From a virus, in IMG/VR virus record IMGVR_UViG_3300044970_000782, positions 1 to 37,613 of that record: DNA of 37,613 nucleotides. The stretch is one strand, 5' to 3'. Positions within the stretch are counted from its first letter, which is position 1; every line of letters begins with the position of its first letter. Both the position numbers and the translations under genes were made by a program. Positions 946 to 32,691 of the stretch are shown piece after piece. A model generated the notes under the pieces. The model was given only the letters and a program-made list of their open reading frames with translations. It searched no databases and was not told the origin of the DNA.

Positions 946-969
946 TAATTATTTGTGGAGCCTATAAAA

Positions 970-1653
970 ATGAAAACCGTACACTTAACACTCAAATCGG
1001 CCAACGCAAAAACCGGCCCGATACCAGTATCGACGACGTCGGCCCTATCATGCCCGTCGGCATGCCCGCTTAAATCGGCCGGTTGCTACGCCGACGGCGG
1101 CCCGCTCGCGTTGCACTGGCGCGCTGTCACGGCCGGCGATCGCGGCATGGCATGGGCTGAATTTTGCGACGCGATCGCGAATCTACCGGCCGGCCAATTG
1201 TGGCGCCACAATCAAGCCGGCGATTTACCCGGCTTAGATAACACAATCAATCCGCTCGCAATGGAAATGCTTGTTGCGGCCAACGCGGGCCGGCGCGGCT
1301 TTACGTACACTCACAAGCCGGCGACAGTCGACAACCTCGCGCAGATTAAAGCGGCCAACGCGGCCGGCTTTACTGTCAACCTGTCGGCCAATGATTTATC
1401 GCACGCCGACGCGTTGGCCGATACCGGCGCCGGCCCTGTTGTCACAATTCTACCGGCCGACGCCGGCGCTAAAAACCGCACGCCGGCCGGCCGCGTCGTC
1501 ATTACATGCCCTGCGCAGCTGCGCGACGACGTGAGCTGCGCAGACTGTCAGCTCTGCGCGCGCGCCGATCGGCCGACAATTGTCGGTTTTTTGGCTCACG
1601 GCGCGAGCGCCAAAAAAGCGGAAAAAGTATTTTTTCTGAAAAAGGCGGCCTAA
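970..1653 (+). CDS. DUF7227-like Cys-rich protein of unknown function
   Basis: The 227-residue product begins MKTVHLTLKSANAKTGPIPV and I recognise the pattern as DUF7227, found in phages and integrative elements, with no known function. The ATG at 970 is preferred over GTG 955 because GGAG (957-960) is well spaced. Cysteines cluster at the N-terminus (CPSAC then CYADGG, spacing Cx3Cx6C) and near the C-terminus (CPAQ, then CADCQLC). Between them are a WRHNQAGDLPG motif and regularly spaced predicted strands (FTYTHK, FTVNLSAN, VVTILP, VVITCP) that could form a barrel. The Cys groups could bind a metal or an Fe-S cluster. The gene holds about 20 GGCC tetramers, far denser than the head genes. 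Confidence 0.85.
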   Translation: MKTVHLTLKSANAKTGPIPVSTTSALSCPSACPLKSAGCYADGGPLALHWRAVTAGDRGMAWAEFCDAIANLPAGQLWRHNQAGDLPGLDNTINPLAMEMLVAANAGRRGFTYTHKPATVDNLAQIKAANAAGFTVNLSANDLSHADALADTGAGPVVTILPADAGAKNRTPAGRVVITCPAQLRDDVSCADCQLCARADRPTIVGFLAHGASAKKAEKVFFLKKAA

Positions 1654-18055: not shown

Positions 18056-20536
18056 CTAGTCATTCCTCAGGTTGTTCTGGTTTCCTGGCGCTAAACGATT
18101 ACGAATCGCCTCCCTTGTCTTTGGCCCTTGCTCTTTTACCGAAGTAGCACGCGGGCGGCTCAACTGAGGCTCTAACGTTTCCAGCACATCCATAAGCCGT
18201 TCACGCTCAGCGCGGGCGCGGTTGGCTTGTTGTGCATCTTTCGCTCGTTTCTCGATCTCTTCAAATGCTTTTGCTTTCTGACGGGCTTTTGCTATGGTTT
18301 CCTCAACCCACGCCCGATCCATCGCTTTTTCAGCCAATGCCTTATCGGATAGCTTACCCAAACCGGCGTCGATAACAGAAAGGTCTACCTTAGTCTTTTC
18401 CCACGCAATTCTTTCTTCTGCCGATAGCGCAAACTTTTGCCCCGAAGCAATCTTCTGCGACGCGCTTTCTAACGACCGCCCTGTGCTGGCTAACACTTCA
18501 GGCGTCGCGCCTTTCATGCCTTGGCTTGTGCTACGCAGTTTACCGGTAACTGGGTCAAGCTCCAACACCACCTCACCGCTGGTCGGTGCTCGGCCAGCAG
18601 CTTCGCTTTGTGCTTGACGCGCAGCAGCTGCTTCAGCTTCTGCCCTTTGACGTTGGTAGTCAAATGCGCGTTGTTGCTCCACGGTACGCATGGTCGATTC
18701 GGCGCTCGGCGCGCCCAACATGGGGCCACTCGGCGTACCGACACGTACATTGCCTTCGGGGATGTTTTGGCCAAACACCCAGTTAGGTATCTGATCTTGC
18801 GTCAACAACGCGTTGCGGTAATCAAACGGTACCGGTAAGTTAGGCGTTGTAGACGGCGGCGCAGGACGCAGATTGTTAACTTGCGCTGGTGGCCGGAAGT
18901 CCGGCGGTACCGCGTAACGCGCTTGGTAGCTAGGCGTAGACATGCGGCGCCCTGCCATGCCGCTGGCAATATTGCCTGCTACCGCACCTGTAATAGCCCC
19001 TGGCAAGCCACCAACTGCCAAACCAACCGTACCGGCAGCGGTTGAACGTGTCAGTCGTTCTGGCGCCCAAAACGGTTTCCCAGTTTTGCCCGCTTGGGCA
19101 ATATCAGGAAACACCGCAACAATTTTGCCAATGTCAGCCGCAATCCCTGATAGCGGTTTACCTTCTGACACCATCTTAGCTAAGACGGTAGGGTCGATAC
19201 GGTTTGTTGCAAAGTTAGTCGCGCGTTCGTAATCGTAAATCTTGGCCATCTCTGAGCGCGCTTGGCGCAGCTCACCTAACAATTTTGGATTGGTGACGTT
19301 GGCGTCAATTAACGATTCCAACGCGTCTGCCAACGACTTATTAGCGTCTGCGCGCGCTATTCTGACAGGGTCAGGCACACCGCTTTTCTGCTGGGCGGTG
19401 TACACCGCATTTGCGTCGCGGCGCAGTTTACGGATGTCGTTAACAATTTCGGCGCCGGAGCGGCCAGCTTTAACTTTAGCAATAGCCTCATCAACCAGCT
19501 TGTTGACGGCTTTAGCGGCAGCTTCGCCGCCAATGGCTGGACGCGTAATGCGCAGTCCTTCTATCTGCGCTAACACGCCTTCGTCGGCTGCCAACTTGGG
19601 TATTTCTCGCACTGCGTTATAAGGCGCGCTTTTCTGATCCAACGCTGTTTCAAACGCTTTGGCGTCCAACACGGTGTTGGGCGGCAAATCCATATCTTGC
19701 AAAGCCAGCTGGGTAAACCGTGGCTCGTTAATCTTTGATAAATTTTCGTTTAGGTTTTCTACGCCAGCCATGCTGGCTTTGAGTCGGTTACTGCGTGTTG
19801 GGTTAGCTTCAGCAGGGTTAACCGCAATGCCGTGCTTAACCGCCAAATTAGCTGCATCAATACGCGCAGCATTCTCAAAACTGCTGGCAACACGGGCTTC
19901 TTGTTTCTTAGCGGCGCGTTCTTGCAGAGGCTTTAATACGGTTTGTACCGGCGCGCTTTCAACCACACTGGAGACAGCTTCACCGACCACGGGCGCTGCA
20001 GCTTTGTACCCGCGTTTAGCCGTACGGCCAGCCGCTGGCAACGTAAACATGCCTGTAAAGATCATGTTTTCTATGTCGGCTTTGGGAACTCCGGTTTTAC
20101 TAGCAAGCCAATCTGCACCTTTACCAACGTTTTCACCTATAAACTGCATAAGCTGCTGCGATGCTTCACCTCGGTACTCAGGCGTTTGAGTAACATTAGC
20201 TGCGGAACCAACCGGCGTACCAAATGTACGCATGAAGGCTTCTTTGCCGCGTTGCGCGCGCCCAGGCTCAGCTAAGCCAACGCTTTCTAATGCGCGTACG
20301 CCTGCATAGCCTGTCTCGGCAATTGCTTGCGGCACGATACCAAGCACCGTGTCTGCCAAACCTGCAGCAGACGCGCCCAAGCGGCGAGAAAAACTGCGCG
20401 GCGGCGGCAACTCACCATATGACATATCGTCAGCCGTTACCGTTACTTCAGGTAGCTGTTCAGACTCTCGATATTGACTCCACGGCCCTGCTGGCTCAGC
20501 AGCAGGCGCCTGATACTGTTCCCATGGGCCTGCCAT
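18056..20536 (-). CDS. Ejection/internal virion-type protein, large
   Basis: 826 residues, starting MAGPWEQYQAPAAEPAGPWS, a start I recognise from podophage proteins expected to be injected with DNA. It is Ala/Gln/Lys/Arg-rich and mostly helical, with a hydrophobic Gly/Ala region near 505-535 (AAGTVGLAVGGLPGAITGAV) that could enter membranes, and a long charged coiled stretch near the C-terminus. The layout fits ejectosome proteins of the P22 gp16/T7 gp16 sort, which make a channel across the envelope. Order and size fit, but the specific homology is not proven. Confidence 0.75.
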   Translation of the reverse strand: MAGPWEQYQAPAAEPAGPWSQYRESEQLPEVTVTADDMSYGELPPPRSFSRRLGASAAGLADTVLGIVPQAIAETGYAGVRALESVGLAEPGRAQRGKEAFMRTFGTPVGSAANVTQTPEYRGEASQQLMQFIGENVGKGADWLASKTGVPKADIENMIFTGMFTLPAAGRTAKRGYKAAAPVVGEAVSSVVESAPVQTVLKPLQERAAKKQEARVASSFENAARIDAANLAVKHGIAVNPAEANPTRSNRLKASMAGVENLNENLSKINEPRFTQLALQDMDLPPNTVLDAKAFETALDQKSAPYNAVREIPKLAADEGVLAQIEGLRITRPAIGGEAAAKAVNKLVDEAIAKVKAGRSGAEIVNDIRKLRRDANAVYTAQQKSGVPDPVRIARADANKSLADALESLIDANVTNPKLLGELRQARSEMAKIYDYERATNFATNRIDPTVLAKMVSEGKPLSGIAADIGKIVAVFPDIAQAGKTGKPFWAPERLTRSTAAGTVGLAVGGLPGAITGAVAGNIASGMAGRRMSTPSYQARYAVPPDFRPPAQVNNLRPAPPSTTPNLPVPFDYRNALLTQDQIPNWVFGQNIPEGNVRVGTPSGPMLGAPSAESTMRTVEQQRAFDYQRQRAEAEAAAARQAQSEAAGRAPTSGEVVLELDPVTGKLRSTSQGMKGATPEVLASTGRSLESASQKIASGQKFALSAEERIAWEKTKVDLSVIDAGLGKLSDKALAEKAMDRAWVEETIAKARQKAKAFEEIEKRAKDAQQANRARAERERLMDVLETLEPQLSRPRATSVKEQGPKTREAIRNRLAPGNQNNLRND

Positions 20537-22057
20537 TTATTTCACCTTTTCCCAGTTTTTCTGATCGGCGGGGTTGCCGCCTTTAAACCGATAGCCATCT
20601 ACCACCGTGTTAACCGCAGGTGGTTTTGGCGCATTAGGCGCGGCGCCGCTTGGCTTTCCTGTTGGTTTAAAATACTGAGTGTCGCCCCACTCAGTCTGAT
20701 AAGCGTCTTTGGCGTTGCTTTTGATTTTCTCCATGTACGCGCGGATTTTCTTGACTTGAGTTTCAGCTTCTTGCGCTGACATGTCGGGCGTAAGCGCAGC
20801 AATCATTTGCTCAACGATTGGCCATTCTTGTTGCGTCATGGCGCCAATAGATCCACCCACGCGAATTAACTCAAGACCTGCAGCCTTCATATCGGATTTC
20901 AAGCTGTCAATACGACGACGCGCATCTGGCGCAAAATATTGAGTTACCGCGCCACTGTAAGGTATGTCGCCACTGAAGTTAGCGCGGAACCCAGCAATGT
21001 ATTTTGGACTTAGCAACTCATCAATTTTGGAGATTGCTGACTGAGTTTTTGTCTCAACGCCTTTTAACGCTTCGCGATCTTTGTTGTGCTTGTCGGATTG
21101 CGCGACGTGCAACTTGCTGCCCGGCACCGTTTCAATACGCTGTTCGGCAACATTCCAACGTTCGCCTTTTTCCAACTTTGTTGGTGGCCCACCGTCGCCG
21201 GTTCCACCACCTTCACCTTTACGTGAACGGTATCGGTCAATTTCAATACGTCTACGCTCTAAGCCGCCAGTTTCTTGCTCAATCTCATCTTGAATTTGTT
21301 TGGCCTGCGGGCTGTTTGCGCCGTACGTTTTTTTCGCCGTATCAAGCTCACCTTGCAACTGAACCACTTTGCTAGGTGCAACAGGCGCTGCAGTTTTAGT
21401 AATAGATTTAGGCCCAACTTCTTGGTTGTAAGTTGGGCTGTTCGGGTTAACGTCGATAAATTTAATCGCGCCGCCAATATCAACTTTTTCGATTTTGGGT
21501 TCTGCGCGACTAAGCTGCTGCTCTATTGTCAAATAACTAGTTAATTTTTGCTTTTGCCATGCAGGAAATGCGGCTGGATCAGACGGTAATTCTGCCTTTA
21601 AGGCTGCACCTTGCACTTCCGTTAACAAACCCGAACCTACATTCCGATCAATAGCGCGCAATGCGTCGTCAAAACTGGTGTAAGACGCCAACTCTTGTGC
21701 CGACGCTTTAATCTGATCTCTATTTTTTTGCGCAGTTTCTGCGGCTAGTTTCTGTTCTTCAAATTTACGTTTAGCAATAGCTTCTTGCGCGCCTGCTAAC
21801 TCCAGTACCGTTTTTGCTTGTCTCGGCGCGCGCGTTAATACCTGCCGCATAAAATCTGGCGAACCAAGGTCTACGTTTGGGCCGCTTAATAGTTTAGCTA
21901 GTTCATTTTTGTCTTGAATATCGCGTTGATACTCTTGCGACTTCAGCAATGCGTTTTCATACTCCGCATACCTTTGCATACGGTTGAGCGGGCTTTCTTC
22001 AAGCGGCATCTGAACCGGCCGAATGCTCAGTGCAATGTTAGGGTCGACTTGTGCCAT
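20537..22057 (-). CDS. Ejection/internal virion protein, mid-size
   Basis: 506 residues, mainly helical. The N-terminal half is charged with heptad-like repeats (AIAKRKFEEQKLAAETAQKN). The C-terminal half has YSGAVTQYFAPDARRRIDSL followed by KSDMKAAGLELIRVGGSIGA, then a WGDTQYFKPTG tail, a pattern shared with P22-like DNA transfer proteins. It starts and ends within a few nt of its neighbours, forming a three-gene ejection-protein set as in P22 (gp7, gp20, gp16). Confidence 0.75.
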   Translation of the reverse strand: MAQVDPNIALSIRPVQMPLEESPLNRMQRYAEYENALLKSQEYQRDIQDKNELAKLLSGPNVDLGSPDFMRQVLTRAPRQAKTVLELAGAQEAIAKRKFEEQKLAAETAQKNRDQIKASAQELASYTSFDDALRAIDRNVGSGLLTEVQGAALKAELPSDPAAFPAWQKQKLTSYLTIEQQLSRAEPKIEKVDIGGAIKFIDVNPNSPTYNQEVGPKSITKTAAPVAPSKVVQLQGELDTAKKTYGANSPQAKQIQDEIEQETGGLERRRIEIDRYRSRKGEGGGTGDGGPPTKLEKGERWNVAEQRIETVPGSKLHVAQSDKHNKDREALKGVETKTQSAISKIDELLSPKYIAGFRANFSGDIPYSGAVTQYFAPDARRRIDSLKSDMKAAGLELIRVGGSIGAMTQQEWPIVEQMIAALTPDMSAQEAETQVKKIRAYMEKIKSNAKDAYQTEWGDTQYFKPTGKPSGAAPNAPKPPAVNTVVDGYRFKGGNPADQKNWEKVK

Positions 22058-22059
22058 GA

Positions 22060-22761
22060 TTATCTCTTACCCCAAGTTGTAGGCCAGTTAGCAGGTGTCG
22101 TTTCGCCCGCATTACGGCTAGCCGTAAGCGCGTCAATATACTGTTGGTCTAGTTTATTTCTTGCTTGGTTTTGCTGGTACGCCAGATAATTTGATAGCCC
22201 CGCATTAGCCGCATTTGCTATGCCTGCATAACCTGACGCGCGCGCCACACCGCCTTGAATCAAGTTAGACCCAATCTGTTCGCCTAAACGACCTGCCGCA
22301 CCCGCAATATTCTGCGAAGTTGTTTGACCCATGCCAGCTAAACTTTGCAGTGGGTTAAGACGCGCGTTACGTTCAGCTTGGTAGCGGTTAAATGCGTTGG
22401 TAAACTCATCCGATCCCAGCTGTTGGCCGTACCGAGTAAGACCGCGCAACGTGGCGCCCGATTGACCCATACCGCCAGCTAACGCGCTGTTCTCTATCGC
22501 GCGTAAACCTTCTTTTAGCCGAAAGCCGTAACCAGGATCAGCTTGAAACTTCTCCATTGTGAACGGCTCATAGCGAGAAGCGGCAACCAATTCGGGCAGC
22601 GCGTTAACGCCTACTTGACGAAACGGCTCTTGCAGCGCAACTTGACGCTCGAACTGGCGCCGTTGTTCTTCAGTCGCGCGGTCAGCAGATTTTGCCTGTT
22701 CTTTTGCACCTAAATAAGATGCGCCGCCGCTAATTATGCTGCCTGCTATGAAGCCTGACAT
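22060..22761 (-). CDS. DNA transfer protein, P22 gp7-like
   Basis: 233 residues. The N-terminal region (MSGFIAGSIISGGASYLGAK) is small-residue-rich and could enter membranes. The central motif FQADPGYGFRLKEGLRAIEN, continuing GGMGQSGATLRGLTRYGQ, is the hallmark of a group of podophage ejection proteins including P22 gp7-like ones. The C-terminal part is Ala/Gly/Gln-rich. It should leave the head with the DNA at infection. It overlaps the SET-domain gene by 16 nt. Confidence 0.85.
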   Translation of the reverse strand: MSGFIAGSIISGGASYLGAKEQAKSADRATEEQRRQFERQVALQEPFRQVGVNALPELVAASRYEPFTMEKFQADPGYGFRLKEGLRAIENSALAGGMGQSGATLRGLTRYGQQLGSDEFTNAFNRYQAERNARLNPLQSLAGMGQTTSQNIAGAAGRLGEQIGSNLIQGGVARASGYAGIANAANAGLSNYLAYQQNQARNKLDQQYIDALTASRNAGETTPANWPTTWGKR

Positions 22762-23615
22762 ACTGTCTCTCCTGATAAGTAAAAGCCAAAATTCGCATGC
22801 ATGGCGTCGCGGTAATCAATAAAAAGTTCGTTACCAACACCCACATCTTTTAAGGCAATTACATATAAATCATCACCAAACTTGTACGGCATTACGTTTG
22901 CGTCGCAGGAATGGTTAATGTAACGCCCTGCCGGAGTACGCTTTCCATCTAACCGGCCTGGGCAGATAACTTCGCCTGCAAAAAAGTGCCTTGTCGCAAA
23001 CATCCCGAGCCCATGTACTGGCGACTCTTTCAGCTCTACGTCATGCCCTTCTGGCATATCAATCAAATCACTTTCGATGGTCACTATGGCGTCCATCGTG
23101 TCTTGGTCTACCCCCAACTGATCTAAAAACAGCTGGTAGTCCGTTTGCGCTGATTCGATTGCCAACCGTCTGCGTGTGTCACCTAACCCGCACTCCGGCA
23201 CTACGTAAAGCCGATCTTCGATGACACTTAACTCTTGGCAGTCGTCAGGGTTGTCATACACGTCAACCCACACCACTTCTTCTTCAAACACTCGCCCGGC
23301 GCGCTGCTCACCTGCCTTGGCGTCAAACTCGCACGGTGCTGTCAATACTTTAACTTCCGTACCGACATTAACTGCGATTGTGCCTTTTTCCAGTCGTACG
23401 CGGTAGTCCGTCTTATGCGCCGCCCCCGTCAAAACTGTCCACGGTGGCACCGTAATCTTACGTTCGTACACGCCAGGCAAAAACGTGTGGGTTGTCACAA
23501 TGTCGGCCTGCGGCATTTGCAGCAGCTCGTCTTGCAACGCAACCACCTTTTGCCGCATCACTTCCGGCGTAACCACCGCCGTGCTGTCAGGGTTAAATAG
23601 TTCAATTGCGTTCAC
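22746..23615 (-). CDS. SET-domain protein with cupin-like N-terminus
   Basis: 289 residues from GTG 23615, whose GTGA overlaps the fibre stop; ATG 23627 (four more residues) is the alternative. Residues about 40-130 look like a cupin-type beta barrel (PPWTVLTGAAH, then strands around VLTAPCEFDAKAGEQ). Residues about 192-270 form a compact SET fold: HGLGMFA (201-207), GRYINHSCDAN with NHSC at 234-237, and GNELFIDY with Tyr268. These are the SAM-binding and catalytic motifs of protein lysine methyltransferases. Only 26 residues separate the first two motifs, so the SET-I insert is missing. It lies between the long fibre and an ejection protein, suggesting a virion or host-surface substrate; that is inference. 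Confidence 0.9.
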   Translation of the reverse strand: MNAIELFNPDSTAVVTPEVMRQKVVALQDELLQMPQADIVTTHTFLPGVYERKITVPPWTVLTGAAHKTDYRVRLEKGTIAVNVGTEVKVLTAPCEFDAKAGEQRAGRVFEEEVVWVDVYDNPDDCQELSVIEDRLYVVPECGLGDTRRRLAIESAQTDYQLFLDQLGVDQDTMDAIVTIESDLIDMPEGHDVELKESPVHGLGMFATRHFFAGEVICPGRLDGKRTPAGRYINHSCDANVMPYKFGDDLYVIALKDVGVGNELFIDYRDAMHANFGFYLSGETVCQAS

Positions 23616-26600
23616 ATCACCACCCATCGTGAGCCGCTGGCTACTGTCACCGTCGTGCCGCTCGCCACCGTAACCGGCCCGGCTGACATGCCCGACGTAC
23701 CTGCTGCAATGGTATAGCTGACATCAATCGTTAGATTATTGACAAATATGCCATTGCCCGCTATGAAATGCTCAGATGTTAATTCACCCGTGCTGGGTTT
23801 GTATAGTAATTTTGCATTGCTGGTGTTAATGGTCGACAGTGTGCCGGACGTAGTCGCCACGAAGGTCGGATAGACATTCGTTGCGGTTGTGGTGTCGTTC
23901 GAGATCGTCGCGCCCGAGCTACCGGCAGCGGCCCATTTAAGACCTGTAGTCTGAGTAGAGTCCGCCTGTAGTACCAGTCCGTCAGCGCCCACCGGCAAGC
24001 GGACATTGTCCGTGCCATCAAACGCAATTAAGTCGCCCTTAGTAGACGCGGGCGACAAGGCGTCAAAAGCCGCAACTTTAGTTGTTTGGCCCGTACCACC
24101 GTTAGCAATAGCTACCGTGCCGGTGACGTTACTAGCCGTGCCCGTGGTGTTCTGGTTCAGCGTAGGGATGTCTGCCGCGACAATAGCTCGGAACGTTGGA
24201 ACGCCCGCTGTACCGTTGGGCGCCGCCAAAAAGAAGTTAGCCGTCTTACTAGCGTAAGGGTTCTGTGTGTCGCCGTAACCTGACGCCAGACTAATAGCTG
24301 GTGTTGCGCCGCCTGACGATACGACTGGCGATGTTCCCGTAACTGAAGTAACGGGCGCAGTGCCGCTAGATGCCGCCGTTATTAAGCCTTTGCCGTTAAC
24401 GGTAATTGAGGCATTCGTAAAGCTGCCCACATTGGCATTGACGGTAGCTAATGTGCCGGCTGCGGTGACGTTAGTAGAACCGTTAAAACTTGGGCTGGTA
24501 TAGGCTAAATCGCCTGTAATAGCGATAGTTCTGCCCGTTGTCAGTGTAGCCGCAGAACCTGTGGTGTTCTGGTTCAGGGTTGGCACATCAGCAACTTGGA
24601 TAGCAGACATGACCACGTCAGTACCGTTGCCGCGCAGATATTGACCGGACGTCACCGCGCCAGCCAGTGCATCCATCGCAGCTTGACGGGTTGTCTCGCC
24701 TGTGCCGCCGTTGGCAATTGCCACTGTGCCCGTCACGTTGCTGGCGGTGCCGGTCGTGTTCTGGTTCAAAGTCGGTACGTCGGCAACTTGAATGGCAGAC
24801 ATGACAACATCAGTACCGTTACCGCGTAAATACTGACCAGACGTAACGGCGCCAGCCAACGCGTCTATTGCGGCTTGACGGGTTGTCTCACCTGTACCGC
24901 CGTTGGCAATTGCCACCGTGCCCGTTACGTTGGCAGCAGTGCCGCTGATACTGCCGGTAATTGTGCTTGGAAACGTCCAAGAGCCATTCGCTGCAACTGT
25001 AGTTCCGTTAGCCGAGCCAATCGCCATTGTTGTGGTGGATCCAGAAAGACCCCCCGTACCAATGTTGATTGTCTTGGTGAAACCAGTGGTAAGCGCGCCA
25101 GATTGAATATTTACCGTTTGCGACGCGCCGGTTGTCTGACCAACAGTAATAGTTCCGGTTGATGTGGCCGCGCCAAACGTGATTGCACTTGCCGTTTGAC
25201 CAAAGGTTACCGCGCCGACCGAACAAGTTATTCCGGCGTTAAACGTCTGTAAGGCGCTAAACGACTGCGCTGTTTGAAGCGCGGCTGTTGTGCGGGTTGT
25301 GCCATTAGCCCTAAACTGCAAACCGTTAGTGGTGTTTACCCAAACATCGCCGTTAACTGGTGAGGTAGGCGCTGTTGTAGTGGCTCCCTGACCTAAATTT
25401 ATCGGAGAATCGGCGGTTGTGACCGCAGGAAGGTTTAGCTTCCCAGTCATCGTATCGCCAGCTCTGTTAACCGGCGTGTAAGTTAAAGCTGTTGTAACGT
25501 CAGACGACGATAGAGTAACGCTGCCAGTACGCGTATTAAAGCTAGTGACGCCGCTGTTATTGATCGTAACCGCTGCCGAACCGTCGTAGGTTGTGCCGAC
25601 ACTGTACGAAATGCCAGTACCTGCCGTTAACGCGTTAGCAACGCTGCCCGCTTGGCCGCTGATGTTGCCCGACACGGCGCTGCCCGATATGGCGATAGCT
25701 GTGTCGGTTACGCTAGTAACTTGGCCTTGGGCGTTGGTGGTAAACACCGGCACTGCCGATGCAGAGCCGTACGTGCCTGCTGTGCCAGTATTGGTGATTG
25801 AAAACGTATTGCTGGCAAGGCTTAACCCCGTACCTGCAGAATACGTCTGAACCGCTGCAAATTGAACAAATACAAGTGCCGTGGTGCCGACCGTAATTGG
25901 CAACGCGGTTTGCTGAACCCAAGACGTATTAGCGTTAACAGCCCCCGACAAGACAAGCATTAAATCGCCTTGGTCTATCGAATTAGCGCCCGTGCCCGCA
26001 GTATCGTAGTCGGTAGCACGCGTAAGAATATATGGCTGGGATGCCGATCCTTCTTGCGTCAATGTGTAGACGCCATTATTAGCGCCAGCAACTTCATTTT
26101 TTACCAGTATGCGCTTGCCTATGTCGGCGGTGACAAACGTATACCCGTCAATGGTCAGCGTACCGTTGGAGCTGGCCGTAAGCGTAGCGCCCACACCGCC
26201 CGTACCATTGTTGTATGTATTGGCAGGCGACAGAGCCGCCGTGGTGGCGTAATTACACGCAGCATGAAAGTTAACGCCGCTGATAAGCGTGTCAGCATAA
26301 AATTTGTTGACTATGTCATTGTTTCCGCTGGGCGCCGTGCTTATGGTGCCTGTAGTCAGCGCAATCGACGTAATGTCCGTGTTTGCGCCGCTTTGCGCTG
26401 CGCTTAAGTTTGCGCGAGCGTTAGCCGCTGTGGTGGCGCCCGTGCCGCCGTTATCGACATCCAGCGTGCCTGCCAGCGTAATGGTGCCGGAGGTTGTGAC
26501 TGGGCCGCCCGAGGTAGTTAGGCCTGTCGTGCCACCGGAAACATCAACCGACGTGACGGTGCCGGAGCCGCCGCCGCCGCCTGTATTGGCTTTGTTCAGC

Positions 26601-26707
26601 AGGTTTAGGAAGAACCGGTACCAATCACGCGACACCATCCCCGTCCGGTCGTCGGTGATCGGCGACTGGTTCTTAGGGAGTTGCGGTTCGTTATCGGGAT
26701 TAGGCAT
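23612..26707 (-). CDS. Long tail fibre protein
   Basis: The 1031-residue protein starts with a virion-attachment segment (ITDDRTGMVSRDWYRFFLNL) and then a Gly-rich linker (about 45). The rest is Thr/Ser/Gly/Ala-rich beta repeats with recurring IANGGTG and GTGISYS-type units found in phage fibres. A 64-residue unit is exactly tandem at residues 593-656 and 657-720 (about 24548-24931), with a weaker third unit near 24066-24156. The end SGSRWVVM is shared with the 295-residue tail protein. It probably forms trimeric fibres that contact the host surface. The start overlaps the gp10-like gene by 8 nt. Confidence 0.93.
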   Translation of the reverse strand: MPNPDNEPQLPKNQSPITDDRTGMVSRDWYRFFLNLLNKANTGGGGGSGTVTSVDVSGGTTGLTTSGGPVTTSGTITLAGTLDVDNGGTGATTAANARANLSAAQSGANTDITSIALTTGTISTAPSGNNDIVNKFYADTLISGVNFHAACNYATTAALSPANTYNNGTGGVGATLTASSNGTLTIDGYTFVTADIGKRILVKNEVAGANNGVYTLTQEGSASQPYILTRATDYDTAGTGANSIDQGDLMLVLSGAVNANTSWVQQTALPITVGTTALVFVQFAAVQTYSAGTGLSLASNTFSITNTGTAGTYGSASAVPVFTTNAQGQVTSVTDTAIAISGSAVSGNISGQAGSVANALTAGTGISYSVGTTYDGSAAVTINNSGVTSFNTRTGSVTLSSSDVTTALTYTPVNRAGDTMTGKLNLPAVTTADSPINLGQGATTTAPTSPVNGDVWVNTTNGLQFRANGTTRTTAALQTAQSFSALQTFNAGITCSVGAVTFGQTASAITFGAATSTGTITVGQTTGASQTVNIQSGALTTGFTKTINIGTGGLSGSTTTMAIGSANGTTVAANGSWTFPSTITGSISGTAANVTGTVAIANGGTGETTRQAAIDALAGAVTSGQYLRGNGTDVVMSAIQVADVPTLNQNTTGTASNVTGTVAIANGGTGETTRQAAMDALAGAVTSGQYLRGNGTDVVMSAIQVADVPTLNQNTTGSAATLTTGRTIAITGDLAYTSPSFNGSTNVTAAGTLATVNANVGSFTNASITVNGKGLITAASSGTAPVTSVTGTSPVVSSGGATPAISLASGYGDTQNPYASKTANFFLAAPNGTAGVPTFRAIVAADIPTLNQNTTGTASNVTGTVAIANGGTGQTTKVAAFDALSPASTKGDLIAFDGTDNVRLPVGADGLVLQADSTQTTGLKWAAAGSSGATISNDTTTATNVYPTFVATTSGTLSTINTSNAKLLYKPSTGELTSEHFIAGNGIFVNNLTIDVSYTIAAGTSGMSAGPVTVASGTTVTVASGSRWVVM
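24548..24931 (-). repeat. Tandem 192-nt repeat inside the fibre gene
   Basis: Two adjacent 192-nt units (24740-24931 and 24548-24739) encode the same 64 residues except three. The DNA copies differ at about 36 positions by eye, mostly third codon positions, so the duplication is old and the protein has been held constant. A weaker third unit with the same IANGGTG start lies downstream. Confidence 0.9.
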
Positions 26708-28133
26708 TGGTGCCGGACAACACTAATTCGGCACCCAAAATAGCAATCTTGACGGGGTCGGTGCCGGACACCTCGTACACGCGGTCACGCAGCTTTTCGG
26801 TCATACCCAGCCGCCGCCAGAAGGCACGGTAGCCGTAGTTGCCGATCTTGCCCATGCCCGTCCAATGTTCGTTTGACCAGGTGTGCCCGCCGTCATCCGA
26901 CCAACGCATGATGACCTGTGGGTCGTTGCCTTGGCCGGTGATCAGACCAACCCCTGTCTCGCACTCAAGCTGCAGCGTGTGCTGGGCAGTACGCTTTAGG
27001 TTGTTCTGGCCGGTGGGCAGTGCCCGCCACGACCGCAGCCACTTCTGTGGCAGGTTGTCGTCAGCAAACACGTCCAAGTCGTACGCGTAAATCTTGCCGT
27101 TCTGGAAGTCACCAACGACGACTTCGTTGTTGTAGAACATCTGGCAGTTGGCACGGTGGCGGATAAAGTCACCGTTGGCAAAGCCTGCGCGCTCATGCCA
27201 TGCGCCGGTGGCTACGTCGAACACCCAAGTGCGTTGGGCGCTCGGAAAGCTCAGCACGTAAAAGGCGTGGCCGTCTTGCTGATAGGTAAAACCAATGGCG
27301 TCCGAGATGGAGCCGTAGCTCTGAATAGCGAATTCAACTGCATGGGTCGAGACACGCTGGCCCGTATAGCCTTGGGCACGGAACACCACGCCTTGGCCAC
27401 GGGCGTCAGACCCAAGCCAAAACAGCGAGTTGTCCATCTTGGCAACCGAGTAGGTTGCCGCGCAGCCTAGCTCGTTGACGGCACCTTGGATGCGAGCCAA
27501 CGGAAAGGGTGAGGTGCCTGCGTTGTACCAGACCTCAACCGACTGGGTGCCAAACAGCCAGACCTCGCGGTGGTCGACAAACAGCGACACCAAGTTGTCC
27601 GGCATACCTTCGGCGCTGGCAAAGCTCAGCGGGTCGAGCTGCGTACCGTCCAGTAGCTCAGACACCCAAAACTTCTGGGAGTTAGGCTCTTGGAAGATAA
27701 AGTAGCCATCCAAATAGCCGACTGTTACCGCGCCGGGAAAGTCTACGTCCGTGATCTCGGCGTACTCTTCGGTCGACGCGTCGTAGATAAACCCTTCAGG
27801 GTTAGCCGCGATGAAGAGCTGCGTGCCGTTGTCGACCATCGACACAGGGCCAGTGCCCGACACGCCGCCAATCGGCGTAACCGTCCAGTTGGTGTCAACC
27901 CGATACAGCCGAGAGCCCGACACGACGTAGCCATAGCCGCCGTACGACCACAGGCCACGGATTGGGCCAGTACCAACGGTCGCCAACCGACGCAAGCCTG
28001 GCGCCCGGTTCAGGTACGCTGGCTCGTTGCCTTCTGGCGACGGGGTGATCTCTGGGTACAGGTTGACCATACGTGCCGCCGCAGCGTTCAAGCTGCGCGC
28101 GACGTACGATTGACCAAGGATAGGCGTCTTCAC
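26700..28133 (-). CDS. Packaged-DNA stabilisation / tail hub protein, P22 gp10-like
   Basis: 477 residues beginning MKTPILGQSYVARSLNAAAA, with a VNLYPE motif, then a series of beta repeats (GPIRGLWSYGGYGYVVSG, QLFIAANPEGFIYDAS, GYLDGYFIF) like a propeller. The signature DDGGHTWSNEHWTGMGKIG, then YGYRAFWRRLGM, occurs in podophage tail-hub proteins of the P22 gp10 family. Such proteins close the portal after packaging and hold the tail needle or fibres. It lies directly after the gp4-like gene, as in P22. Confidence 0.88.
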   Translation of the reverse strand: MKTPILGQSYVARSLNAAAARMVNLYPEITPSPEGNEPAYLNRAPGLRRLATVGTGPIRGLWSYGGYGYVVSGSRLYRVDTNWTVTPIGGVSGTGPVSMVDNGTQLFIAANPEGFIYDASTEEYAEITDVDFPGAVTVGYLDGYFIFQEPNSQKFWVSELLDGTQLDPLSFASAEGMPDNLVSLFVDHREVWLFGTQSVEVWYNAGTSPFPLARIQGAVNELGCAATYSVAKMDNSLFWLGSDARGQGVVFRAQGYTGQRVSTHAVEFAIQSYGSISDAIGFTYQQDGHAFYVLSFPSAQRTWVFDVATGAWHERAGFANGDFIRHRANCQMFYNNEVVVGDFQNGKIYAYDLDVFADDNLPQKWLRSWRALPTGQNNLKRTAQHTLQLECETGVGLITGQGNDPQVIMRWSDDGGHTWSNEHWTGMGKIGNYGYRAFWRRLGMTEKLRDRVYEVSGTDPVKIAILGAELVLSGTNA

Positions 28134-32328: not shown

Positions 32329-32691
32329 TCAAGCAAGAAACTTCAATTTGTAAATCGTGGACAAGTACAGCCCAACGATCTCATCAATAATGTTTTGTAG
32401 CGGGCTGTCCGCCTTGTCGACGACCTTGTACCGCATCTCTTCAATTTCTTCAAGCTGGTCTTGCAAAAACTCCAAGATGTTGCCCGGCTTTTTGGTCGAC
32501 TGTAGTGAAATAGCGCCAATCAGGCCGTGACGGCCTTGGTACGCCTCAGAAAACTTGTCCGCCAGATCAACAATCTCGTCGTAAAACGTGTTTAACGCAA
32601 CGTGTTTGGCGTAGCTACGGGTGTTCAAGTGCACCGAATGAGCCACATCGCGGCCCAAAAACAAGATGCCTACAAAGTTTGCGCAGCTCAT
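32329..32691 (-). CDS. DUF5856-like, ferritin-like helical protein
   Basis: 120 residues. The pattern FLGRDVAHSVHLNTRSYAKH, then ALNTFYDEIVDLADKFSEAY and a Glu-rich helix (QDQLEEIEEMRYKV), resembles DUF5856, a phage family with a four-helix bundle like Dps/ferritin. His19 and Glu/Asp residues in the helices could bind metal. It overlaps the portal stop by 4 nt. The role is unknown; it may be carried in the head. Confidence 0.75.
   Translation of the reverse strand: MSCANFVGILFLGRDVAHSVHLNTRSYAKHVALNTFYDEIVDLADKFSEAYQGRHGLIGAISLQSTKKPGNILEFLQDQLEEIEEMRYKVVDKADSPLQNIIDEIVGLYLSTIYKLKFLA

Follow-up and report, generated by a model that had tools for sequence, protein, structure and literature searches.

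A SET domain with conserved catalytic landmarks, optionally fused to a short tail fibre cupin in P22-like virion modules

Results

Gene order and start of the cupin-SET gene

The window (the whole stretch of DNA analysed, 37,613 nucleotides of the IMG/VR virus record IMGVR_UViG_3300044970_000782) carries a P22-like virion module in the order portal, scaffold, coat, gp4-like, gp10-like, fibre, cupin-SET, gp7-like ejection and gp20-like genes. The portal matches P22_portal (E = 8.4e-174) and the scaffold matches phrog_8865; further features are given in Table 1. The first-pass annotation had taken the gene following the cupin-SET gene to encode an ejection protein, and this proved correct (phrog_598, a family that also matches P22 gene 7, E = 4.2e-98). 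The fibre-like protein on the other side has no match in Pfam.

Table 1. Features of the cupin-SET gene and its neighbours, in positions of the window
Feature	Position	Strand	Basis
P22 gp10-like head closure Hc3	26700..28133	minus	phrog_578, E = 2.3e-137
Upstream fibre-like gene, 1031 aa	23612..26707	minus	phrog_11393 tail fiber protein, E = 5.9e-5, 83 residues matched
GTGA overlap of GTG start with stop of upstream fibre gene	23612..23615	minus	sequence
Cupin-SET gene	22746..23627	minus	open frame, 293 aa; 289 aa from GTG at 23615
Cupin domain, residues ~40-140	23208..23510	minus	AF2, 4e2g match, phrog_12032
Two-helix linker, residues ~148-182	23082..23186	minus	AF2 secondary structure; full-length pLDDT 50-74 per block
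Compact SET domain, residues ~191-285	22773..23057	minus	PF00856 and VIA fold matches
GxG motif (G206, L207, G208)	23004..23012	minus	both Gly in 86/86 rows
N238-H239-S240	22908..22916	minus	each in 86/86 rows; next Cys in 6/86
Tyr272, catalytic Tyr position of SET	22812..22814	minus	86/86 rows
Downstream DNA-ejection protein, P22 gp7-like	22060..22761	minus	phrog_598, E = 6.2e-36; overlaps SET gene end by 16 bases
P22 gp20-like ejected protein	20537..22057	minus	phrog_2534 'released from the phage upon host infection', E = 6.3e-9

The cupin-SET gene had been placed at 22746-23615 with its strand omitted. The coordinates stand, and the strand is minus: the minus strand over 22746-23627 is open for 293 aa, and a plus-strand reading over 22746-23615 is ruled out, its frame being full of stops. 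The GTGA overlap with the fibre gene is likewise real, with the GTG (23615-23613) lying over the TGA (23614-23612) of the 1031-aa fibre gene. One relative (L022) has an ATG at the matching codon and a stop two codons upstream, and the GTG at 23615 is therefore a plausible start. SET is the sole Pfam match to the whole protein. Residues 24-277 match phrog_34170 (E = 1.6e-35), a PHROGs family of 296 positions that also spans cupin and SET but has no assigned function. NCBIfam and PADLOC gave no match to the protein; the PADLOC result says little, as that collection holds defence proteins. The G+C content of the window gene is lower in the SET half than in the cupin half (0.47 versus 0.54).

The C-terminal half is a compact SET domain

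The C-terminal half scored 44.2 bits against PF00856 (E = 2.9e-11, curated cut-off 22.4 bits), and a profile built from eight relatives found MLL1 SET chains (E = 4.7e-9). Modelled alone from 42 rows with AlphaFold2 (AF2), it reached a mean pLDDT of 86.1 and a pTM of 0.72, with blocks of 92-98 over model residues 51-130. In VIA this model matched the MLL1 SET domain (7u5v) with Z = 12.4 and 1.6 Å over 78 residues, and also SMYD2/3. Structure prediction and comparison with vSET, proposed in the first-pass annotation as a check, thus returned a SET fold (3kma, Z = 11.3, 2.2 Å over 80 residues, 28% identity). Cupins make up most of the first 50 Foldseek matches listed, so the fold match rests on VIA and on the viral library. 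Taken together, the Pfam match, the MLL1 profile match and the VIA scores put the SET domain beyond chance, and the earlier claim of a SET homologue inside a P22-like virion module is borne out.

Conservation was assessed over 86 rows, namely 82 loci rows plus the window, MW202744, P26218 and PH1; as one locus (L001) is the window's own copy, 85 are distinct. Because the rows were collected by their similarity to the window (E <= 1e-3 in BLAST for those from IMG/VR), conserved forms are favoured among them; some are only ~30% identical to the window protein, and contig-end fragments and duplicates were dropped. Both glycines of GxG, Phe210, Arg230, Thr231, Gly234, Arg235, Asn238, His239, Ser240, Glu267 and Tyr272 are invariant in all 86. 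The first-pass annotation had found the motifs for SAM binding and catalysis all present, and had reasoned that homologues lacking the catalytic Tyr or NHSC would speak against its assignment. GxG, NHS and Tyr are invariant, while the Cys of NHSC occurs in only 6 of the 86 rows. That Cys matters in SET enzymes with a post-SET zinc cluster, which are some subfamilies only. Its rarity here means that the protein is not placed in a post-SET subfamily.

In every row the asparagine of NHS lies 30 residues after the second glycine of GxG, compared with 65 in MLL1 as read off the profile alignment; the SET-I insert, described earlier as missing, is indeed nearly absent. SET-I helps to shape the substrate groove, varies between subfamilies and is not required for SET membership. 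Median NG86 dN/dS values, from pairs with dS of 0.05-1.2 among 14 sequences, were 0.073 for the cupin (11 pairs), 0.074 for the linker (15) and 0.124 for SET (14), and the protein is thus under purifying selection. The invariant catalytic residues and the low dN/dS point to a working enzyme rather than a relic, a predicted SAM-dependent lysine methyltransferase.

Comparison with known SET proteins places the domain more closely. It shares the fold, GxG, NHS and catalytic Tyr position with SET lysine methyltransferases (MLL1/KMT2A, SMYD2/3, SET8; PF00856), but differs in having almost no SET-I, no conserved Cys after NHS, and a fused cupin. vSET (PBCV-1 A612L, 1n3j/3kma) is likewise a small viral SET, a chain of 119 aa without a cupin. 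Phage residues 193-272 (80) cover a 104-residue span of it (2-105), making the phage domain the more compact. Small SETs are also found in the phages P-SSM7 and Ps15, matching phrog_28741 with E = 1.3e-63 and, weakly, E = 4.9e-4. P-SSM7 has in common with the window an R-T-P-x-G stretch before NHS, whereas Ps15 lacks NHS. Both proteins are of ~100 aa and, unlike that of the window, stand alone outside virion modules, the P-SSM7 gene after nrdB and the Ps15 gene among small hypothetical genes. The paper on Ps15 lists its SET protein, ORF62, with the domains that have no known function (PMC9025141).

The N-terminal half is a short tail fibre cupin

The cupin-like N-terminus reported earlier was confirmed by a match to the cupin 4e2g (VIA, Z = 12.0, 2.6 Å over 93 residues), and AF2 gave pLDDT values of 78-94 per 10-residue block over residues 41-140. 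PHROGs assigns this half to phrog_12032, 'short tail fiber protein' (E = 6.8e-21), and to phrog_24280, 'tail fiber adhesin' (E = 2.4e-16). A search of the PDB by sequence found no convincing relative of the cupin. Judged by these profile matches, the N-terminal half is a member of the stand-alone 'short tail fiber' cupin family of many podoviruses (phrog_12032 / PHA00672), where 'short tail fiber' is an annotation and the name PHA00672 is taken from record notes. Members such as those of BA3, VvAW1 and BPP-1 (Bbp23) lack SET and measure ~140-185 aa in the records examined; those of P22-type podoviruses occupy the same place, before the ejection gene.

Metal-dependent cupins have a conserved His/His/Glu/His metal site. 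In a 17-row alignment read by eye, only M1, R56, G68, G82 and G106 are invariant, with H71 kept in many rows, so this site is not conserved in the family. The full-length AF2 model, built with 14 aligned relatives, had a mean pLDDT of 76.7 at best (57.7-69.0 for the other four models) and a pTM of 0.42, which makes the two domains credible and their relative arrangement not.

The gene place adjoins the ejection proteins

Among 34 selected records, 32 match the cupin profile (17 of which supplied a profile row or are near such rows), 25 match phrog_598 and 24 match both; 8 other cupin records have no phrog_598 match. The cupin gene adjoins the phrog_598 gene in all 24 records with both families. 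Nineteen of these are IMG/VR records, window included, scored from overlapping open frames, and five are named phages scored by annotation (P26218, BA3, VvAW1, 234P9 and 1.067.O). A check of open frames found the two genes adjacent in 19/19 IMG/VR records and in 218/218 loci having both; 24 of the 242 loci, which overlap one another, lacked one or both. The 25th phrog_598 record is P22 itself, where gene 14 (DUF2824, 'head morphogenesis') occupies the place of the cupin.

BA3, VvAW1, VPMS1 and 234P9 carry the cupin as a stand-alone protein in their virion modules. In two T7-type phages it comes after the tail tubular B gene, at the internal virion proteins or one gene ahead of them and near the place of T7 gene 13; its position differs in BPP-1 and in an Alteromonas phage, where it precedes a head-tail adaptor gene. 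P22 gp14 (DUF2824, phrog_651) and T7 gp13 thus hold an equivalent gene place before ejection or internal proteins, but belong to other sequence families. DUF2824 matches P22 gp14 (6.1e-53) and not the cupin-SET protein, and the cupin profile found nothing in P22 or T7.

The stand-alone cupin gene of BPP-1, bbp23 (L172:5483-6402), directly follows a GNAT acetyltransferase gene, bbp24. A GNAT beside internal virion proteins has been likened to T7 gp13 (PMC6775973), and that comparison is the only printed hint found of a modifying enzyme near this gene place. PF00583 (GNAT) matched in just 2 of 26 records, 25 of them with a cupin or a P22/T7-type module, and in the Sphaerotilus phage the match lies by the head-tail connector, away from the cupin. 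An amine-modifying enzyme as a constant feature of this place is therefore unsupported.

The two large genes past the gp7-like gene (18056-22057, minus strand) vary strongly in length among relatives, most being ~280-940 aa each, with or without SET. One contig of 49,997 bases (G017:C1) encodes two phrog_598 proteins, one far from the cupin, and may comprise two phages or reflect an unusual assembly.

The SET half is optional

After exclusion of contig-end fragments and duplicates, 127 distinct cupin domains remained, 82 with SET and 45 without; a 138/33 split is redundant and is not taken as a frequency. The 45 short forms stop 22-49 residues past the cupin match, leaving no room for a hidden, decayed SET, and none of them shows a different domain in place of SET. 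Their cupins are up to 95% identical to that of the window (L051), a figure covering the cupin alone. PF00856 had no match in any of 9 contigs with a short form, which may be fragments, and one match in each of 9 contigs with a long form. DNA alignments from two distinct clades show the difference as one in-frame gap, located between the end of the cupin and the stretch overlapping the next gene.

On the cupin tree, where 59 of 124 inner branches are unresolved and SH-aLRT is the sole support measure, parsimony required 17 changes of SET presence, compared with 37.4 for shuffled labels; 5 are forced by well-supported branches. Cupin and SET identity correlate moderately among SET-bearing pairs (r = 0.61, 3403 pairs, the window's own copy L001 included), with the SET half often the more divergent. 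Read from these trees and alignments, SET is a module gained or lost repeatedly on a podovirus cupin. SET is not needed to build the particle in the related phages that lack it, and its optional presence makes a conditional benefit likely.

Distribution among viruses

Scans of viral contigs with four overlapping queries confirmed 127, 299, 246 and 310 related stretches, of which the best 80 were kept each time. The 246 were found with the SET part as query, and the best 80 of these were read. In 50,697 phage records, 34 match the cupin-SET protein and 8 do so over at least 80% of its length (MW202557, MW202655, MW202744, zth2-2, and two records each of P26218 and PH1). The isolates with the fusion and a named host are Rhodoferax phage P26218 and Pseudoalteromonas phage PH1. 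With the SET part alone, weak phage matches were obtained to P-SSM7 (E = 3e-3), Ps15 (E = 0.06) and P-RSM6 (E = 0.09). Outside phages, 4 of the 79 stretches from a scan of genome contigs were confirmed, each on a MAG contig.

Lysine co-variation with SET

We sought potential substrates by comparing lysine columns with SET presence in seven flanking virion proteins: coat (31 rows), gp4-like (82), gp10-like (112), fibre-like (82), gp7-like (112), gp20-like (33) and gp16-like (20, with no testable lysine column). No trustworthy lysine signature of SET was found in these seven, the best p per protein being 6e-4 to 0.02, uncorrected and with descent uncontrolled. The best gp7-like column (63) has lysine more commonly without SET (16/35) than with it (11/77). 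Weak leads are gp7-like column 106, with lysine in 46/76 rows with SET and 9/33 without (uncorrected p = 0.0017), and fibre column 703, with 14/34 and 0/17 respectively (uncorrected p = 0.0018). Strong differences occur in certain lysine columns of the cupin-SET protein (best p = 6e-11), the highest-ranking of which lie mainly at the cupin/linker edge.

Nearest neighbours agreed with the SET label above shuffles for the gp7-like (99/112, shuffle maximum 79), gp10-like (89/112, 83) and gp4-like (69/82, 59) proteins, an excess that can be explained by common descent and linkage. Agreement for the fibre, coat, gp20-like and gp16-like proteins was within the shuffle range. The approach therefore yielded no trusted substrate.

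Discussion

What is new here is that the N-terminal half is the podovirus 'short tail fiber' cupin, that the SET half is optional, and that the gene stands at the place of P22 gene 14. Many viral contigs, and two isolates whose hosts are named, encode a podovirus virion-module protein extended by a SET domain that keeps the catalytic landmarks. No description of a cupin-SET protein, and no account of lysine methylation of, or by, phage particles, was found in the titles and abstracts of the open-access literature. Published papers on individual phages cover VvAW1 (PMC3558961), P26218 (PMC4657236), X14 (PMC9011153), PBR31 (PMC10975493) and JG068 (PMC3765740).

Our preferred reading, to which we give a probability of roughly 0.45, is a dispensable, cupin-borne SET methyltransferase acting on virion or ejection proteins at tail or ejection assembly. 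The two-domain protein would be of late type, expressed late in infection. Most likely, its cupin half would anchor the enzyme to the tail or to the assembly of ejection proteins, where lysines of a virion or ejection protein would be methylated by the SET half. Such methylation would adjust stability, ejection or protection against host attack, without being necessary for assembly. In favour of this reading are the Pfam and fold matches, the invariant catalytic residues, the low dN/dS, the stand-alone cupins of other virion modules, the place beside the ejection gene and the absence of SET by one in-frame gap in relatives. The near absence of SET-I, the lack of a lysine signature in the flanking proteins, a 'short tail fiber' identity given by annotation and the pTM of 0.42 all weaken this reading.

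Alternatively, the fusion may sit in the virion and its SET enter the cell together with the ejection proteins, or be displayed at the tail tip, to methylate a host protein, for example blunting a defence. We consider this rather unlikely. The gene does adjoin the gp7-like ejection gene, the 17 changes of SET presence (5 forced) suit a conditionally useful accessory function, and the greater divergence often seen in the SET half fits as well; the missing PADLOC match counts against it with little weight. More speculative, and to us doubtful, is the specific form in which a lysine methyltransferase borne on a tail protein is ejected as infection begins and methylates a protein of the host ahead of any phage gene expression, with SET added or dropped as hosts and their defences change.

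It is improbable that the protein is instead an active methyltransferase made during infection and working in the cytoplasm on host proteins, its link to the cupin being incidental. The stand-alone phrog_28741 SETs of P-SSM7 and Ps15, both outside structural modules, offer a precedent; however, no SET match without a cupin occurred among 237 loci, most of which were fetched by cupin-bearing queries, the SET-only query contributing the best 80 of 246. Least probable is a SET fold without catalysis that serves in binding or at the tail tip and is exchanged in the manner of a receptor-binding domain: a C-terminal domain repeatedly gained and lost on a 'tail fiber' family protein would suit it, but binding alone would not require GxG, NHS and Tyr272 to be invariant, and none of the 45 short-form rows has an alternative domain in the SET position.

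Phages with closely similar cupins and no SET constitute a natural experiment. As the same protein occurs with or without SET in related phages, the role of SET under the preferred reading, or any other, is directly testable.

Other genes of the window

Two further genes in the window deserve mention. A DUF7227 protein (955-1653, plus strand; E = 5.6e-90) is of unassigned function. The other gene, immediately behind that for the portal (32329-32691, minus strand), encodes 120 aa that match phrog_858, 'starvation-inducible transcriptional regulator' (E = 5.7e-27), a kind of protein unexpected at that location.
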